DNA from: a virus
Virus record (IMG/VR): IMGVR_UViG_3300023184_004198
Location: 148,615-212,614 of that record
DNA length: 64,000 nt
Direction: 5' to 3' (one strand)
Made by a program: the position numbers and the translations under genes. The notes beneath the pieces were generated by a model that made no database searches, was not told the DNA's origin, and saw only the letters and a program-made list of their open reading frames with translations. Positions 24,145 to 52,059 of the stretch are shown one piece after another (position 1 is the stretch's first letter; each line of letters begins with the position of its first letter).

Positions 24145-24372
24145 ATGACCAAAGAAGTATACAAAAGTGCTCGTGGCAAACCTGTGGACATGGGAGCATT
24201 GCGTTTAAAAAATGAAAAAGAACGTGCAGTAGGCAATATGAAAGTGAATGCTCGTGGTGACGCTGTGGATGAAGGCAATCACCCAGTTCAAAGCCGACCA
24301 CAACAGGTGCATAAACAATATCAACAACAGATTCAAGCAAAAACTTCTTCACACAAATGGGATTTAGATTAA
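24145..24372 (+). CDS. Small basic phage protein (75 aa)
   Basis: ATG 24145 follows TTTAGGAGAAAGAC. It contains KSARGKPVDMGALRLKNEKE and VGNMKVNARGD, a pattern I recall from short hypothetical proteins of T4-like aquatic phages. Q-rich and basic, probably little ordered; a virion or DNA-binding role is possible. Ends in a TAATG overlap with the GroES-like gene. Confidence 0.6.
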   Translation: MTKEVYKSARGKPVDMGALRLKNEKERAVGNMKVNARGDAVDEGNHPVQSRPQQVHKQYQQQIQAKTSSHKWDLD

Positions 24373-24749
24373 TGAAAGCAGCATACAGCGCACATAGAGT
24401 TAGCAAGTTACAAGCATTAAATGATTCAGTGTTAGTAGAAGATATGGTATTTGATGAACGCCTTTCAAATGGCGGTATTGTGCTGTTAAACGACAATGGC
24501 AAGAGTTCAGGTATTCGTCCACGCTGGGGGCGAGTGTATGCCATTGGTCCTGAGCAGCAAGATGTGCGGGTAGGTGAGTGGATTTGTGTGGCACACGGAC
24601 GTTGGACACGTGGCCTGGACATTGAAGATGACAAAGGCAAACGTACCATTCGCAAAATTGACCCCAAAGATATCTTGATGTCAGCAGATGAAAAACCATC
24701 AGATGTCACATTCTCTGATGCTATTCACGTTGAACGCAAAGAACGATGA
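24372..24749 (+). CDS. GroES/gp31-like co-chaperonin (125 aa)
   Basis: LNDSVLVEDMVFDERLSNGG corresponds to the N-terminal strand and the start of the mobile loop of GroES (RVLVKR...KSAGGIVL), followed here by IVLLND, GRVYAIGPEQQDVRVGEWIC and a C-terminal extension (~85-125). T4 gp31 is a GroES replacement that lets GroEL fold the major capsid protein gp23; this gene likely does the same. It sits in the replication/chaperone operon, coupled by overlaps both sides. Confidence 0.8.
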   Translation: MKAAYSAHRVSKLQALNDSVLVEDMVFDERLSNGGIVLLNDNGKSSGIRPRWGRVYAIGPEQQDVRVGEWICVAHGRWTRGLDIEDDKGKRTIRKIDPKDILMSADEKPSDVTFSDAIHVERKER

Positions 24750-39939: not shown

Positions 39940-39968
39940 TTGACCTCCACACCAGGGTCCTGTATAAT
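39940..39968 (+). promoter_or_regulatory. Early-type sigma70 promoter for dnaJ
   Basis: TTGACC (39940-39945), 17-bp spacer, TATAAT (39963-39968). The -35 begins right after the stop of the secreted protein. Confidence 0.75.
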
Positions 39969-39983
39969 TAAACATACAGGACC
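39956..39983. promoter_or_regulatory. 10-bp inverted repeat across the -10 and start site
   Basis: GGTCCTGTAT (39956-39965), 8-bp centre, ATACAGGACC (39974-39983), then TTTCTT and ATG 39990. It covers the -10 box and the expected start point, so it could be a repressor operator; as RNA read from upstream it could act as a terminator for the holin unit. Confidence 0.55.
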
Positions 39984-39989
39984 TTTCTT

Positions 39990-40775
39990 ATGACCGACTA
40001 CTACGCCACACTGGGCGTCTCTCGAACTGCCACTGCTGACGAAATTAAACGAGCCTTTCGTCGGCTGGCCAGTCAACATCATCCCGATAAAGGTGGCGAC
40101 ACACAGAAGTTTCAGGCCATACAAGCAGCCTACGCTGTGTTAGGCGAAGAGCAGAAACGTGCTGAGTATGACAATCCCAGACCACAGTTTTCGGGATTCA
40201 ACGGCGGTGTAAACATCAATGATATTTTTAACATGTTTGGACAAGGTGGCTTTCCAAGTGGGGGATTTGCACAACAACATCCCAGACGCAGTCATGTAAG
40301 AATGACACTTTGGATTACTTTGTTGGATGTAGCCACTGGTGGTCGACGCACCGTGAGTCTAGGCACACAAGCCGGAGTCAGTGCAGTAGAAATTGACATA
40401 CCCTTGGGCATTAACGACGGCGACAATGTGCAATATGAAGGAATTGGACCTGGTGGCTCAGATCTTGTGGTGCAATTCAAAATAAATCCTGATCGCAAAT
40501 GGCAGAGAGATGGGTTGAACTTGATACAAGAAGTTCGAATTGATATCTGGAATCTAATTCTAGGCGGCGAACTTACCATTGACACTTTAACTGGAAAAAC
40601 ACTCAGCACTCGTGTGCCAGAACGCACACAGCCCGGTACTGTATTACGACTCAAAGCACAAGGCTTGCGGGATCGAGCAGGGCATATAGGAGACATTTTG
40701 ATTCGAATACAGACTTTTTTGCCTGATCAAATTGCACCCGAAATCATTGATGCCATCCAAAAGCACCAAGAATAA
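39990..40775 (+). CDS. DnaJ/CbpA-type co-chaperone (261 aa)
   Basis: J domain at 1-65 with HPD at 31-33 (HHPDKGG) and [20 protein letters not shown]; a G/F region ([14 protein letters not shown]); then two beta-sandwich substrate domains with [18 protein letters not shown]. There is no CxxCxGxG zinc finger, so it is class B (CbpA-like). It would recruit host DnaK. It has a private early promoter with an operator-like repeat and lies just before a ClpA-like gene. Confidence 0.9.
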
Positions 40776-40824
40776 ATATTTTGGCACAGCCCAGGTTGCA
40801 CCAAATATGAAAATAGCATATAAT
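40773..40824 (+). promoter_or_regulatory. Combined late motif and sigma70-like promoter for clpA
   Basis: TAAATA at 40773-40778 overlaps the dnaJ stop. TTGCAC (40796-40801), 17 bp, TATAAT (40819-40824) follows. The gene could be read both early and late. CAAGGACCC before ATG 40852 is the RBS. Confidence 0.5.
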
Positions 40825-40851
40825 AACCCATAGGACAACTCAAGGACCCAC

Positions 40852-43107
40852 ATGCAAAATAATCCCGAAATTGAACATATTGTTGAACAAGCAGTGAAAA
40901 TTGCGCGAGACAAACATCATGAATATGTGATCACCGAACACTTGTTGTTGAGCCTGATCAGGCATACACCTTTTCGTAAAACACTGGATCGTTTTGGTGT
41001 AGAAATTACACAAATGGATCAAGAAATTGAGGCCTATCTTGATGGATTGAAACACTTGGTCAAGACTGATGCAGATTTGCAACCACGCAAAACACAGACA
41101 CTAGAACGACTGTTCAATCGTGCCAATGTGCAGGTTATGTTCACTGGTCGTAGAACACTAACAACTTTGGACCTGTACTTGAGCATCATGGCCGAAACCA
41201 ACAGCCATGCACACTACTTCTTGCTGAAATATGGTGTGAAGAAAACTGAATTTGCTGATTTCTACAGCAAAAATTACACAGCCGCCGAAACAGCCCGGAT
41301 GAATACCAATCAGGCCAACGACATTTTGAACGAGTACTGCACCAATTTAACAGCACAGGCACAAGCAGATCAGTTGGAACCACTTATTGGTCGCCAAACC
41401 GAACTGCACGAAATGATCACAGTAATGGCACGACGTTTCAAAGCCAACGTGCTCATGGTGGGTGATCCTGGTGTGGGCAAGACCTGCATTGTGGACGGCC
41501 TTGCACAGGAAATTGTTGCTGGCCGTGTGCCCAAATTCATTCAGGACCACGAAGTATGGGGTTTGGAAATTGGTAGTCTGTTGGCAGGATCAAAGTATCG
41601 TGGTGAATTTGAAGAAAAATTCAAGGCTGTGATTGCTGCCTTGGAAACCAAGAAAAAATGTATCCTGTTTATTGACGAAGCACACACTATGAAAGGTGCT
41701 GGTTCAGGTTCACAAAGCAGTCTAGACTTTGCCAACATGTTGAAACCTGCAATCACCAAAGGCCACTTGAAAGTAATTGCTAGTACAACCTGGGAAGAAT
41801 ACTACGAATCATTTGAAAAGGATCGCGCACTCATGCGTAGATTCTACAGACTCAGCATTGACGAACCCGATCAGGACACCACAGAAAAGATTTTGATTGG
41901 GTTAAGCCCCAGATTGGAAAAATTTCATGACGTCATGATTGACACAGATGCTATCATGGCCTCTGTTGAACTGGCCAATCGATACATTCATGATCGTAAG
42001 AATCCTGACAAAGCCATTGATTTGTTGGATGCGTCATGTGCTAGAGAGCGTGTAAAGGATGCGGGCACAGTCACAGTCACCAAAGAAATGATTCAAGCAC
42101 AAGTAAGCCGTGTGGCAGGTGTACCTGTGGATCGCTTACAGAATGAACGCAGTGCAAAGATTGTGGATCTCGAAAGCAATATCAAGCAGAAGTTGTATGG
42201 ACAAGACTCAGCAGTGGATTCAGTGCTGGAACGTGTGTACATCAACTTTGCTGGTATTGGCAATGCCCGGCGTCCTATTAGCAGTTTCCTGTTCCTAGGC
42301 CCCACAGGTACAGGCAAAACTGAGTTAGCCAAACTGCTCGGCGAACACTTGGAAATGAAACTGTTGCGTTATGACATGAGTGAGTATCAGGAAAAACACA
42401 CAGTGTCAAGCCTGATTGGTGCGCCTCCTGGCTATGTGGGCTTTGAAGATGGCAACGTGGGCGGCGGCAAGTTAATTTCAGACATCAGCAAGAATCCCTA
42501 TGCTATTATCTTGTTTGACGAGATTGAAAAAGCACACAGTGATGTCACCAACATCTTGTTGCAGATGCTGGACGAGGGGCACATTACTAGTGCAAATGGC
42601 AAAAGAGTTGATGTGAAAAACTGTATCATTATTATGACATCAAACTTGGGTGCTCAAGCCAATGACACCAACAACATTGGTTTTGGATCATTGGAGAAGT
42701 CAGGAGAAGAAGACCGTGCAATGAAAGACTTCTTCCGTCCTGAACTGCGCAATCGCATTGACAAGATTTGCAAGTTCAACAAACTGAACACCTTGGCCAT
42801 CAAGAAGATTGTGGTCAAGTTCGTGGACGAACTCAAAGCCAGTATGACACACAAAAACATCAGACTGGTGCTGACTGAACCGGTGATTGACTACTTGGCT
42901 GACAAAGGCTACGACTCCAAGATGGGCGCACGTCCACTGAGTCGTAAGATTGATGAACTGATTCGTGTGCCACTGAGTAAGAAGATCCTGTTTGATCGAC
43001 TGGAAAATTGCACCATCACTGCTGTGATGACTGAAGATACAGTAGAGTTCAACATTGAGCAAGATGCTGTGACCATTGTGAACTCTGAGGGGATTATTAT
43101 TGTATAA
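40852..43107 (+). CDS. ClpA-like AAA+ unfoldase (751 aa)
   Basis: Nearly the length of E. coli ClpA (758). N domain ~1-150 (HHEYVITEHLLLSLI); NBD1 Walker A GDPGVGKT (204-211) and ILFIDEAH; NBD2 Walker A GPTGTGKT (483-490) and IILFDEIEKAH; MGARPLSRKI sensor 2. The IGF tripeptide at 609-611 matches the ClpP-docking loop, so it can be expected to dock on host ClpP; that is inference. No ClpP gene is in the window. A phage copy could redirect host proteolysis. Confidence 0.92.
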   Translation: MQNNPEIEHIVEQAVKIARDKHHEYVITEHLLLSLIRHTPFRKTLDRFGVEITQMDQEIEAYLDGLKHLVKTDADLQPRKTQTLERLFNRANVQVMFTGRRTLTTLDLYLSIMAETNSHAHYFLLKYGVKKTEFADFYSKNYTAAETARMNTNQANDILNEYCTNLTAQAQADQLEPLIGRQTELHEMITVMARRFKANVLMVGDPGVGKTCIVDGLAQEIVAGRVPKFIQDHEVWGLEIGSLLAGSKYRGEFEEKFKAVIAALETKKKCILFIDEAHTMKGAGSGSQSSLDFANMLKPAITKGHLKVIASTTWEEYYESFEKDRALMRRFYRLSIDEPDQDTTEKILIGLSPRLEKFHDVMIDTDAIMASVELANRYIHDRKNPDKAIDLLDASCARERVKDAGTVTVTKEMIQAQVSRVAGVPVDRLQNERSAKIVDLESNIKQKLYGQDSAVDSVLERVYINFAGIGNARRPISSFLFLGPTGTGKTELAKLLGEHLEMKLLRYDMSEYQEKHTVSSLIGAPPGYVGFEDGNVGGGKLISDISKNPYAIILFDEIEKAHSDVTNILLQMLDEGHITSANGKRVDVKNCIIIMTSNLGAQANDTNNIGFGSLEKSGEEDRAMKDFFRPELRNRIDKICKFNKLNTLAIKKIVVKFVDELKASMTHKNIRLVLTEPVIDYLADKGYDSKMGARPLSRKIDELIRVPLSKKILFDRLENCTITAVMTEDTVEFNIEQDAVTIVNSEGIIIV

Positions 43108-43798
43108 AGTTGAAAAAGACGATCGTAGCAGTCTGTACTATAACCAGTACGAATATTGTGTGACCCTCAACATCTCAGATGCTAGTTGCTTACGCGATCT
43201 GCAGCCTGTGAGATTTGAGGCATCCATTCGCAATGCCAAGTACTGGGCCGAAATGGACCGTGGTGGCGCCTATCAAAATCGTGGCCGAGATGTTTGGGAA
43301 GGTACAGCCAAAGAACTTGCCTTGCGTGAAACTCGCGATATCTTGTTGGAACAAGCCGGCACATACAAAGCAGTGATCAGTTTCAATGTGTTGAGCCTGT
43401 ACACCAACAATCGCCGGTTGGCTGATCAGTTTGTCGAACTGGACAATCCCGGTGTTCGACTACATCTAGTGCGTCAAGCCATGATCACCAAACCCTCAGG
43501 TGTCGTACAGTTGCAAGAATCCAAACACGGTTACAGAACTTATCTGCGAGAACGCAAATACAGTCTGGATCAACGAAACTTGTTGCTGGATTTTTTGCGA
43601 GCACGTGAGGGAACCCTGCGTCCCTGCGGTGCATTGATGGCGTGGTTAGAGGCTCGACCCAAGTACTATATGGCCAATCTCAACTACAGCCGAAGCCACT
43701 ACTTTGTGGACCATGATCACCCCAACGAAGGCACCATGATCAGCCTGGTGATGCCGGGCATTGTAAGAAAGACTCTGCCCATTGAAACGACTAAATAA
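43100..43798 (+). CDS. Phage hypothetical protein (232 aa), TTG start
   Basis: Overlaps the clpA stop by 8 bp with a TTG start, so translation is coupled. Mixed alpha/beta with many Arg residues (DVWEGTAKELALRETRDILL; HLVRQAMITKPSGV; HGYRTYLRERKYSLDQRNLL). I recall similar conserved hypotheticals in T4-like aquatic phages. Could be an adaptor for ClpA by position only. Confidence 0.6.
   Translation: MYKVEKDDRSSLYYNQYEYCVTLNISDASCLRDLQPVRFEASIRNAKYWAEMDRGGAYQNRGRDVWEGTAKELALRETRDILLEQAGTYKAVISFNVLSLYTNNRRLADQFVELDNPGVRLHLVRQAMITKPSGVVQLQESKHGYRTYLRERKYSLDQRNLLLDFLRAREGTLRPCGALMAWLEARPKYYMANLNYSRSHYFVDHDHPNEGTMISLVMPGIVRKTLPIETTK
43792..43797 (+). promoter_or_regulatory. Late promoter motif 7 nt before ATG
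   Basis: ACTAAATAATATACTATGG: TAAATA overlaps the TAA region of the previous gene, with 7 nt to ATG 43805 and no Shine-Dalgarno. Confidence 0.55.
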
Positions 43799-47142: not shown

Positions 47143-50100
47143 ATGAACATCAACGAACTAGACTCCTATAATCTTGCAGACGCAGTAAAATTTCACCGCC
47201 GTCTCAATCCCAGAATCTGGGGGCGAGACGAGCACTTGCTGCCTGAAGTGCGTGAAAAATTACTGGCCATTGCTGCGGATTTTCAAGAATTCCTGGGCGT
47301 GGATGATCTCAACGTTCAAGACATCACTATATCAGGCTCAAATGCAGCCTATTCATATACAAAAAATTCAGACATTGACCTGCATCTTGTGGTTGAGATG
47401 CCTGATGATCCTGTGTATCAGGAACTGTTCAACGCTAAAAAATATCAATACAACGACGAGCACAATATAAAGATTGGTGGTGCGGATGTAGAGTTATATG
47501 TACAGCCTAGTGATCAAGCACATCACAGCCAAGGCATTTATTCAATTCAAGACAACCAATGGTTGCAGGTACCTCAACGCAAACGTGCTCAAATAGATGA
47601 TGCGTGTGTGCGTGACAAGGTTGCAGACCTGGATGCCAGAATTCACGCTGCCGTCAAAAGCAAAAATATCGACGCTGTGACCACATTGTGGAACAAGATC
47701 AAAACCATGCGTCAAGCGGGACTCGAACAACATGGTGAGTTTGGCTGTGAAAACATTGCTTTCAAAATGTTGCGCAACAGCGGCTGCATTGGTGCGTTGA
47801 AAGATGCTAAAACAGCACTGCAAGATCGTGAACTCAGTCTGCATGAAGAGCCACGAAAGAGATTTCGTTATGGGTATGGTTCGACAATGGTTGAAGCATC
47901 TACTCCTGATGGAGTCAGTCCTACCACTCAAATGTTTTTGAATGAAGATGACGAGATTGAAACCAAAGTACGTGACTTCATCCAACATGTGACCACAGAA
48001 CTGGGTATTGACCCCATGCCAGAAATTCACTTGCACACTGATCCCGAATGGAGTGTACACAATCACAGTTTTGGTCGTTACGACCCTGACAGTCATACTT
48101 TGAATGTCAGCATGCCCAACCGCCACATCCTGGATGTGTTGCGTACAGTGGCACATGAACTGGTGCATTGCAGTCAAAACCAACAACATGGGCACTTGCC
48201 CGACGATGCAGGTGAAACTGGCAGTCGCTGGGAAAATGATGCCAATGCTCGTGCAGGTATCATCATGCGCGACTGGGCCAACGCACACCCAGAAGATTTT
48301 GAACAAGCACCCTTGGCAGAAAATGCTTCGGGCTATATTCCCAAGAACAAACGAGAAGCAGCCCGGCCACAGTATGCCATGGCACTGAGTGTGGATATCA
48401 AACCTGGGCAGGTGGGCAAAGAAGCCAACAAGTTGGCATTGAAAACTGGACGCAATGGTGAGCCAGGCTTGCTACAACCTGATGCACAAAACTTGTTGCG
48501 TGAGTTTGCAGAATTCGCAGAAGAACAAGAAAACTTGTTTGAAATAACCATGAGCCCCTCAAGTCTGCGCAAATTGAGTGCGCAAACTGGTGCCTTGGCC
48601 GGCATGGAATTTGAAATGTGTGTGCCCAACGTCGAAGGCAACGACGACGGTGATCAAGAACCTGACTATGACTATGATGAACGCTGCCGTAGCATTGAAG
48701 ATGCTGTGCAATTTTTCTATGATGGTGATTGGAACGGTCGTAGAGACGTAGAACGCATGCGTGAAAGAATGCAGAGTGATTTCAGTGATTGGCTGATGGA
48801 CAAGGTCTATCAAGACTGGGAACGCCATGGCGAGGAATATCTGGAAGAATGGGTGCCCAACAACGTGGACGAATCTGAGTGGAATCCTGAAGGCCTGGAA
48901 GGTGAGGCTCGTCAAGAAGCACTAGAAGAATACATCGCTGCTATGCATGCCGATGCCGGCAGCAGTGGTGATGCGTTTGATGAGTACAGAGAAGAAAATC
49001 AAGAGTCATATGACGAAAGTGACTGGTTGGATGACGAAGACCTAGACCGCATGAGTAGTATTGAAAATGCCTACTCAATGAACTGGCCGCACTGGACCAA
49101 CCCCGGCCGTGGCGAAACCAGCATTGAAGATATTGCTGACAGTTTTAGAGACGCAGTGGGCCGCCCAATACTAGCCAGCACCAGTTATCACAGCAGCCGA
49201 GTTGAACGACCCAGCACCAAAAACTTGGAATACATTGTAGAACCTGACAGCAGTATTGATGTTGATGACAACGACGATCGAGGCCTGGAGTTTGTAAGCC
49301 CGCCCTTGCCTATAGAAGAACTGCTGAGTGATTTGAACAAGGTCAAAGCCTGGGCTGATCGTACTGGTTGTTATACCAACGATTCAACCGGCCTGCATAT
49401 CAACGTGTCAGTACCTGGCTGGTCCGGCGACCTCAGTCAATTGGACTATGTAAAACTGGCCCTGTTGCTGGGCGATGAGCATGTGTTGGAATCTTTTGGA
49501 CGTGCTGGCAATACCTATTGCAAGTCAGCCATGGGCAAGATACAAAAAGCAGTGAAACAAAATCCTGACAAGGCAGAAGAACTGTTGGAACGCATGCGAC
49601 AGGGCATGGATCAACTGGCCAGCAAGGCCATACACTCAGGCGTCACAGACAAATACACATCAATCAACCCCAAAAATGGCTACATTGAATTCCGTTCACC
49701 CGGGGGCGATTGGTTGAATGATAACTTCAAAGAAATCGACAACACCCTGCGTAGATTCACAGTGGCCCTGAGTGCAGCCGTGGATCCTAAAGCGTATCGC
49801 CAAGAATATCTAAAGAAACTGTACAAATTGTTGGATGTTCACAGTGAAAAAGATCCCTTATCATACTTTGCAAAATTTGCCGCAGGCGAGTTGCCCAAGG
49901 CAGCACTGAAAAGTTTTGTGCGTCAAGCACAGTTAGAACGTGGTGTCAAGCGTGGCAAAGAAACAGGCCCAATGTGGTGGCGGGTGTACAAAGAAGGCAA
50001 AAATGCTGCCAACGGTGCCGTAATCGAAGTTGTGGCTTCTAGCCGAGAAGAAGCATTAGACAAAGCCGCCGAAGAATGGGGTGTGTTTAGCAACGAATAC

Positions 50101-52059
50101 CGACGTGCCATGTATGCCGAACCTGTACGTCCTTATGACGGAGTTGATACCAGCAGAGAGTATGAATTTTACGACCGACGGTCTGGTGCAGTGGTAGCCA
50201 CATTCCGTGCCAGTGATGATGATGCAGCCATAGCAAAACTGGATCAGTTCCGCGCAGCCCAAGTGCGAACACAGGGAATAACAGTGCCTCAAGCCAATGA
50301 GATATACGGTGTTCGTTCATCAGGAGTGGTCACTGCGCCGCCCAGAGATAGACCATCCACTGCTCCTATTCCAGGAAGCACCTTGGATCTACAACGTCAA
50401 CGACTGGCACAGGCACAATCGGGCGGCAACTGGGGTATTCTAATCACATCAAATGGTCGATTTGTTCGCATGTCTGGCACAGGTGATCCAACTGATAGAG
50501 CCCTGCGCAGATTTCCAAGTCGTGAGGCTGCTGAAGAATTTCTAGCACAAACTCGTGCAGAAAATCCCAACATGAGAACTGACATTGAGATTCGTGAGAT
50601 TCCTGCAGATTATCAATCACCCGGCCAACCTGCAGCAGCAATTCCCACCATTGACATTGATGTTGAACCTGCACCAGCACCACAGCCAGCGGGCATGGGA
50701 CAATGGAACGGACAATGGCGGGTCTTGGTTGGCGGTCAAGAAGTATACCGTTTTGGTGGTGTGGGCAACAGTCAAGCAGACGCCAATAGAATAGCAGCCG
50801 CTTGGTTGCGTGACAACGGACAAGGTGTATCTGGCGAAGGCTTTGAAGTATATCCGGTGATGAACGAAAGTTTGACTGAATCCAATCAACTGCAATTAAA
50901 AGATTTTGTGGTTACAATAAGTCCACATGCCCTGAGCCAAGCATATAACAAGGGTGTGGATGTTGACATTGTAGATGACATTTTGCGCAACATCAGTACA
51001 GTCAAAGATCGTATCATGAGCCTAGAACCTGGCAGAGCCCTGATCCTTCACAACGGACAAGGTACTGGCTTAGGCGTTCGTCGACAACAAGGCAACCGAT
51101 TGACCTTGGCCACAGTGTTTCCCACCAGTCCAGGATTTACTAAAGGCAAACATCCAACTTTTCGAGTTGAAGCAAACACTGTAGATGAAGGTGTAACGTC
51201 TGCCATGGATGCTGACCAAGTATTACACTATGTAAAAAAAACACATGGCGCCGACAAATTCAACATTGAATACAGCATAACTGATCATCCCCAGTGGGAA
51301 TTAAAAAATATTCCGTTGTCACAGTTGCACTTGGATCCTGATGGTGAACAACAGGATCCTTACAATAGAACCAACTGGGTTGACTACGATGTTGTGCGTG
51401 ATTTGATACCTAAGATCAAAAGCGTTCTGAAAAATACACCTATTGTGGTAGACGCCGACGGTTGGATCATTGACGGAAATCATCGTGCCATGGCAGCACT
51501 AGATGCAGGATTAACAAGTGTGCCTGCACTTGTACCTGTTATAGTTAAAGAAGATCTGACAGAAGCCAAAACAACCCGAGAAGATTTTGAGGGTATGACC
51601 ATTGAGATGATTAAAAATGGTCATGTATTAGTGATCAATGCGATTGATGATTGGGGCAATAATATCCTGGGTTCTGTTGCTTTCAATATTGGTGATGACA
51701 ATGATTTAGATCCACAAGACTTAAAGGTCGATGAAAGATATCAAGGTCAAGGTATTGCTCGAGTCATGTATGATTATGCAAAAAGCAAGGGCTACGAGAT
51801 TCATCGTAGTTATGACCAAACTGATGCCGGTCGAGGCTTTTGGGACAAGCATCGCGGAGCGGATGTGCGTGTATGGGAAAACTTTGCGGATGGCAAGAAT
51901 CCCGGACGCAAGGGTTTGAGCAAGCGTGTAGGAGTCAACACCAAAGCGTCAGTGAGTGATTTACGTAAGACTGCTAAAAATTCATCAGGTGAGAAACAAC
52001 GCATGGCCCACTGGCTGGCCAACATGAAAGCCGGCAGAGCCAAGGCCAAGAAGAAATGA
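47143..52059 (+). CDS. Giant multi-enzyme (polyvalent-type) protein, 1638 aa
   Basis: Domains in order: nucleotidyltransferase (GS at 65-66, DIDLHL 77-82, Glu117); zincin-type metallopeptidase (HELVH 338-342, Glu364); amidoligase/ATP-grasp-like region (~485-905: GMEFEM, TGLHINV with His752, EFRSPGGDW); four short strand-strand-helix modules (~945-1240: WRVYKEGK, YEFYDRRSG, WGILITSNG, WRVLVGGQ); a RelE/BrnT-like beta domain (~1250-1345); ParB-like domain with DGNHR (1444-1448); GNAT acetyltransferase (YQGQGIA ~1533-1539); basic C-terminus. Junctions carry LxE sites (LAE|N 393, LTE|S 1246, LTE|A 1474). Resembles polyvalent proteins injected with DNA, such as T4 Alt in principle. Confidence 0.8.
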   Translation: MNINELDSYNLADAVKFHRRLNPRIWGRDEHLLPEVREKLLAIAADFQEFLGVDDLNVQDITISGSNAAYSYTKNSDIDLHLVVEMPDDPVYQELFNAKKYQYNDEHNIKIGGADVELYVQPSDQAHHSQGIYSIQDNQWLQVPQRKRAQIDDACVRDKVADLDARIHAAVKSKNIDAVTTLWNKIKTMRQAGLEQHGEFGCENIAFKMLRNSGCIGALKDAKTALQDRELSLHEEPRKRFRYGYGSTMVEASTPDGVSPTTQMFLNEDDEIETKVRDFIQHVTTELGIDPMPEIHLHTDPEWSVHNHSFGRYDPDSHTLNVSMPNRHILDVLRTVAHELVHCSQNQQHGHLPDDAGETGSRWENDANARAGIIMRDWANAHPEDFEQAPLAENASGYIPKNKREAARPQYAMALSVDIKPGQVGKEANKLALKTGRNGEPGLLQPDAQNLLREFAEFAEEQENLFEITMSPSSLRKLSAQTGALAGMEFEMCVPNVEGNDDGDQEPDYDYDERCRSIEDAVQFFYDGDWNGRRDVERMRERMQSDFSDWLMDKVYQDWERHGEEYLEEWVPNNVDESEWNPEGLEGEARQEALEEYIAAMHADAGSSGDAFDEYREENQESYDESDWLDDEDLDRMSSIENAYSMNWPHWTNPGRGETSIEDIADSFRDAVGRPILASTSYHSSRVERPSTKNLEYIVEPDSSIDVDDNDDRGLEFVSPPLPIEELLSDLNKVKAWADRTGCYTNDSTGLHINVSVPGWSGDLSQLDYVKLALLLGDEHVLESFGRAGNTYCKSAMGKIQKAVKQNPDKAEELLERMRQGMDQLASKAIHSGVTDKYTSINPKNGYIEFRSPGGDWLNDNFKEIDNTLRRFTVALSAAVDPKAYRQEYLKKLYKLLDVHSEKDPLSYFAKFAAGELPKAALKSFVRQAQLERGVKRGKETGPMWWRVYKEGKNAANGAVIEVVASSREEALDKAAEEWGVFSNEYRRAMYAEPVRPYDGVDTSREYEFYDRRSGAVVATFRASDDDAAIAKLDQFRAAQVRTQGITVPQANEIYGVRSSGVVTAPPRDRPSTAPIPGSTLDLQRQRLAQAQSGGNWGILITSNGRFVRMSGTGDPTDRALRRFPSREAAEEFLAQTRAENPNMRTDIEIREIPADYQSPGQPAAAIPTIDIDVEPAPAPQPAGMGQWNGQWRVLVGGQEVYRFGGVGNSQADANRIAAAWLRDNGQGVSGEGFEVYPVMNESLTESNQLQLKDFVVTISPHALSQAYNKGVDVDIVDDILRNISTVKDRIMSLEPGRALILHNGQGTGLGVRRQQGNRLTLATVFPTSPGFTKGKHPTFRVEANTVDEGVTSAMDADQVLHYVKKTHGADKFNIEYSITDHPQWELKNIPLSQLHLDPDGEQQDPYNRTNWVDYDVVRDLIPKIKSVLKNTPIVVDADGWIIDGNHRAMAALDAGLTSVPALVPVIVKEDLTEAKTTREDFEGMTIEMIKNGHVLVINAIDDWGNNILGSVAFNIGDDNDLDPQDLKVDERYQGQGIARVMYDYAKSKGYEIHRSYDQTDAGRGFWDKHRGADVRVWENFADGKNPGRKGLSKRVGVNTKASVSDLRKTAKNSSGEKQRMAHWLANMKAGRAKAKKK

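Follow-up and report, generated by a model that had tools for sequence, protein, structure and literature searches.

Which peptidase does a phage-encoded ClpA serve, the ClpP of its host or one made by the phage itself? We addressed this question at a locus in which clpA follows dnaJ. The window, meaning the whole 64-kb stretch of DNA that was analyzed, comprises bases 148615-212614 and is the final part of a 212,614-b virus record (G000:C1). Elsewhere in the record, named families and selected stretches were examined. The record is possibly incomplete, so absences from it weigh little. Table 1 lists the features.

Table 1. Positions of the features discussed, in the window or in the virus record named.
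Feature	Sequence	Coordinates	Strand	Basis or remark
gp31/GroES-like co-chaperonin	window	24357..24749	+	PF00166, 22.7 bits vs cut-off 21.1; phrog_931
dnaJ, class B J-domain protein, 261 aa	window	39990..40775	+	PF00226 and PF01556 above cut-offs
clpA, 751-aa two-ring AAA+ unfoldase with N domain	window	40852..43107	+	TIGR02639, 797 bits; motifs invariant in relatives
IGF, putative ClpP-docking tripeptide, clpA codons 609-611	window	42676..42684	+	aligned with E. coli IGL; invariant in 81/81
232-aa neighbor, no known family	window	43100..43798	+	TTG start overlapping clpA stop; found in related loci
ClpX, full-length with zinc domain	G000:C1	109876-111087		
Hsp20	G000:C1	111415-111873		
ClpS	G000:C1	111933-112244		PF02617, E 5.5e-25
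ClpP2	G000:C1	129323-129895		PF00574, E 3e-27
ClpP1	G000:C1	132204-132836		PF00574, E 4e-80
DnaK of relative (L141-L143)	G005:C1	223318-225111		PF00012
DnaK of relative (L141-L143)	G026:C1	142268-144061		PF00012
DnaK of relative (L141-L143)	G009:C1	149624-151414		PF00012

Judged by its sequence, the gene adjoining dnaJ encodes a genuine ClpA unfoldase. The protein has the domain plan Clp_N, two AAA domains and D2-small, and it aligns with E. coli ClpA at an E value of 7e-174. Its match to TIGR02639 covers residues 6-724, and the score of 797 bits is below the equivalog cut-off of 993, which marks it as a divergent member of that family. Two Walker A motifs (204-211, GDPGVGKT; 483-490, GPTGTGKT), two Walker B motifs (271-276 and 552-557) and two pore loops (246-251 and 527-530) were assigned. 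The full-length protein, both Walker A motifs and the IGF tripeptide named in a preliminary description of this DNA were all confirmed, the tripeptide at exactly the stated residues. No variation was seen among the 81 ClpAs of the clade in the two Walker A motifs, the pore loops of D1 and D2, or the IGF tripeptide. In E. coli ClpA, the IGL tripeptide fits into clefts on ClpP (PMC9663308).

Recent capture of clpA from a host was considered as its origin and was set back by two observations. Bacterial ClpAs are 37-44% identical to the phage protein, and in the tree the clade ClpAs group with other jumbo-phage ClpAs (SH-aLRT 97), apart from 45 bacterial ClpAs, a placement obtained by a quick search and with long branches. 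The 232-aa neighbor lies directly 3' of clpA in 71 of 80 related loci. It evolves fast, being 21-65% identical while ClpA is 70-92% identical. It could be a partner of ClpA or an unrelated neighbor, the link between the two being one of position only. The window also contains a 1638-aa ORF (47143-52059) that has a ParB-like stretch (phrog_930) toward its C-terminal end and matches phrog_36119 in its N-terminal part.

A family search of the 64-kb window yielded no ClpP gene, in agreement with the preliminary description. That description had proposed that ClpA depends on host ClpP unless a phage ClpP lies elsewhere in the genome, which was to be checked for ClpP or ClpS. When this check was run, two ClpPs and a ClpS were found outside the window, and ClpX is encoded in the same record. 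The proposed dependence on the host is therefore not supported, and a model in which host ClpP is the only peptidase was set back with it. The Clp genes of the record are 57-80 kb apart and form no single operon, which we counted against a self-contained system. Adjacent ORFs in another stretch of the record (L085:58-1023 and 980-2176, at about 124057-126175 of G000:C1) were noted by eye as candidates for a UV-damage endonuclease and an amidinotransferase.

Both ClpPs look catalytically competent. The predicted Ser-His-Asp triad is complete in 19/19 ClpP1 and 13/13 ClpP2 sequences, and the Gly-Gly of ClpP is found as well; the ClpP fold is assigned from sequence (PF00574). The two paralogues differ at the positions that we take, from E. 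coli ClpP, to line the hydrophobic docking pocket (Y60, Y62, F82 and L114). ClpP1 retains most of the pocket positions, with Ser, Leu or Asn at that of Y60. In ClpP2, several have changed, with mostly Met, Ser and Thr where E. coli ClpP has Y62, F82 and L114, and the canonical N-terminal segment is missing. Because its pocket is changed, ClpP2 would more likely be a partner of ClpP1 or a separate peptidase than a docking face for ClpA. The phage ClpS aligns with E. coli ClpS (E 5e-15), and its Asn-Asp and His, presumably the residues that grip the N-terminal amino group of an N-degron, are invariant in 18 clade members. ClpS, ClpA and ClpP are thus encoded together, as the N-degron pathway (ClpAPS) requires at the level of genes. 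No leucyl/phenylalanyl (Aat-type) transferase was found in the possibly incomplete record, and this was also counted against self-containment. The Clp genes are under purifying selection, with dN/dS values against relatives of 0.03-0.19, where dS is partly near saturation.

Next, we followed the linkage across freshwater relatives. ClpA relatives with 70-92% identity came from 80 IMG/VR loci, and 29 relative records of at least 95 kb (30 counting our own) were searched for ClpP, ClpS, ClpX and DnaK. In 18 of the 30, the sequence upstream of clpA is 88 kb or longer, and each of these 18 has ClpX and ClpS together with one or more ClpPs. The order in these records is ClpX, ClpS, (ClpP2), ClpP1, then 40-72 kb, then DnaJ-ClpA; ClpP1 was found in 17 of them, ClpP2 in 14. 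The remaining 12 records, in which ClpX and ClpS were not found, have under 74 kb of sequence upstream of clpA; two of these (G008 and G015) extend far enough to reveal a ClpP. In one relative (G029; L077, L278), ClpA, ClpS, ClpX and ClpP2 are present, with no ClpP1 in the searched record.

The same combination was seen in named jumbo phages. All 13 that carry ClpA (Atu_ph07, Phosso, PA5oct, Vibrio 2.275, XaC1, SCTP-2, SE_PL, RaK2, CBB, Kaldavass, pEa_SNUABM_47, 121Q and fENko-Kae01) also have a ClpP above cut-off and a ClpS match, the latter above cut-off in 12 and below it in XaC1. A comparison set of 11 jumbo phages, which we chose ourselves, had ClpS in 0/11 and ClpP in 3/11; none of these phages (0/11) is among the ClpA matches listed, 165 records having matched. 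Fisher p values were 4e-7 (ClpS) and 2e-4 (ClpP); when relatives were collapsed by hand, they became 1.6e-4 and 0.026, respectively. Chance co-occurrence of the Clp genes was set back by this comparison and by the record-length analysis above. There were two exceptions: VnaP (129 kb), with a ClpA-like match, has a weak ClpP and no ClpS, and LR756501 (L158), a 735-kb uncultured phage with a very long-branched ClpA relative, has no ClpP or ClpS match.

The docking tripeptide of ClpA varies among these phages. In RaK2-like and related ClpP-encoding jumbo phages (L150-L156) it reads MNM, LGM, MGM, VGM, IGV or IGM, which possibly reflects a private docking code or a loss of docking.

These observations are best explained by a self-contained, phage-encoded ClpAPS protease, to which ClpX adds a second unfoldase, a reading that we consider probable. 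Phage ClpS would bind proteins whose N-degron residue is exposed and pass them to the ClpA hexamer. The IGF loops of ClpA would dock on a ring of the canonical ClpP1, and the docked ClpA would unfold the substrate and thread it into ClpP1, on which phage ClpX would serve as a second machine. The active-looking paralogue ClpP2 probably forms a mixed core with ClpP1 or acts as a separate peptidase. DnaJ would work beside the Clp machine with host DnaK. We infer this assembly, the cognate docking, the use of N-degrons and a role in removing or recycling host and phage proteins during infection. Degradation of defense proteins, suggested in the preliminary description, is a possible role.

The main rival places these proteins in virion assembly: ClpP1 or ClpP2 would act as the protease of head maturation, and ClpA would translocate structural proteins or serve as their chaperone. 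The top PHROG for both ClpPs is labeled 'head maturation protease', and in other jumbo phages clpA adjoins virion genes, such as that of a tail sheath stabilizer. On the other hand, ClpP1 scores higher against housekeeping ClpP (265 bits, PF00574) than against the phage family (173 bits, phrog_94), no scaffold fusion was seen on the ClpPs, and ClpS and ClpX are conserved alongside, neither of which head maturation needs; the scores of ClpP2 are ambiguous (93 and 80 bits, respectively). Moreover, the prohead protease is listed as a protein of its own in moraphages (PMC12619734). Proteomic data from fENko-Kae01 have a bearing on both readings. There, ClpA was flagged by LC-MS/MS in a study of material >300 kDa, from which its authors infer nothing on the virion, and ClpP and ClpS were not flagged (PMC11218385). 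The support that these data lend to a self-contained protease is mixed. Since the docking loop of this phage is diverged (MNM), its ClpA may work differently. Overall, a virion assembly role appears unlikely.

According to a second alternative, no phage peptidase is used: ClpA from the phage would dock on the ClpP of the host and redirect the host protease. Host ClpP is conserved and cross-docking is hence plausible, the IGF tripeptide is near those of bacterial ClpX and ClpA, and the G029 relative is without a canonical ClpP1. This alternative has to contend with the ClpS and the two ClpPs with intact catalytic residues that the record itself encodes, and with the presence of ClpS and one or more ClpPs in all relatives whose records extend far enough; we regard it as quite improbable. 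Docking on host ClpP in addition to phage ClpP could still occur.

The dnaJ gene bears on the remaining alternative. Its product has an HPD motif at 31-33, a glycine/phenylalanine stretch and C-terminal domains; the J domain spans residues 3-61 (PF00226, E 1.6e-21) and DnaJ_C residues 103-245 (PF01556, E 2.2e-25). The 261-aa sequence contains zero cysteines and thus no zinc finger, which places the protein in class B. The closest solved structure is T. thermophilus DnaJ2 (E 5e-33). The class B DnaJ adjoining ClpA was therefore described correctly in advance, except for its start, which had been put at 39940, 50 b upstream of the ATG. The gp31-like co-chaperonin reported alongside also proved to be a real ORF, with a PF00166 score just above the cut-off. 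Family searches found no GroEL or DnaK in the 212,614-b record. As far as this possibly incomplete record goes, the claim that host partners are required is supported for DnaJ and the gp31-like protein, which would still need host DnaK and GroEL, and is not supported for ClpA, since phage ClpPs are present. Three close relatives have a full-length DnaK (ORFs of 632-637 aa; PF00012, E <1e-250) between clpX and clpS, and phage DnaK has been reported for moraphages, in eight cases (PMC12619734).

DnaJ and ClpA might then form a chaperone/disaggregase pair with DnaK, ClpA replacing ClpB and not serving as a protease motor; dnaJ precedes clpA in 79/79 testable relatives (within 400 b in 75, at about 400-440 b in four), adjoins it in Atu_ph07 and PA5oct and is separated from it by one gene in Phosso, and DnaK occurs in the three relatives, but the ClpA model aligns end to end while ClpB models align only in separate pieces, a pattern consistent with the lack of the ClpB middle domain (the DnaK-binding one), and the IGF loop is invariant, so that we consider this pair very improbable. 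In Sinorhizobium phage Phosso (L145, 2454-2972), the intervening gene encodes a peptide deformylase. This enzyme acts on protein N-termini and may be relevant if ClpS reads N-degrons.

Several known systems resemble the one proposed here. Agrobacterium phage Atu_ph07, already reported with ClpX, ClpA, ClpB, ClpP, ClpS and DnaJ (PMC6102473), shares the four Clp proteins X, A, P and S with our phage, and its DnaJ gene, too, immediately precedes clpA. It differs in that its ClpA is ~39% identical, ClpB is present and one ClpP is above cut-off in place of two. Moraphages are likewise freshwater phages of >200 kb, in which ClpA belongs to the core genes, DnaJ is common and Hsp20 occurs in some; ClpP and ClpS, both encoded here, are not discussed for them (PMC12619734). 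RaK2, 121Q, CBB, SE_PL and fENko-Kae01 have the same ClpA, ClpP and ClpS matches, but their tripeptide is MNM, LGM or MGM, and no annotated DnaJ adjoins ClpA. E. coli ClpAPS (PMC9663308) agrees with the phage proteins in domain plan and docking loop, in the catalytic triad and in the residues of the N-degron pocket, whereas the phage has two ClpP paralogues, unlinked genes, 37-44% identity and a separate tree branch. Going by its description in the moraphage paper (PMC12619734), the J-domain protein of RB43 is comparable in being phage-encoded and expected to act on host DnaK; the one found here is, in contrast, paired with ClpA.

In a 2021 review (PMC7824862), ClpP and ClpS figure as alternatives found in different jumbo phages, and ClpS is assigned to host ClpAP, whereas all 13 ClpA-carrying named phages examined above have the three proteins together. 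Clp is not mentioned in a 2026 jumbo-phage review (PMC13282480). The systematic ClpA-ClpP-ClpS linkage and the second, divergent ClpP appear to be new, being undescribed in the open-licence papers searched. A broader proposal, which we put forward tentatively and think doubtful as a whole, is that ClpA-bearing large phages maintain an N-degron pathway of their own. In it, ClpS and ClpA would work with a core made of both paralogues (ClpP1P2), one face of which docks the ATPase; phage-made N-degrons would feed the system, which would be insulated from host Clp and would serve a programmed removal of host or phage proteins during infection. The finding of phage ClpPs and ClpS shifts the question from how a phage ClpA hijacks host ClpP to how the phage uses a whole AAA+ protease of its own, with its adaptor. 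Because ClpS is a specific reader of N-degrons, the substrates would be findable by N-terminomics, if the phage system works.
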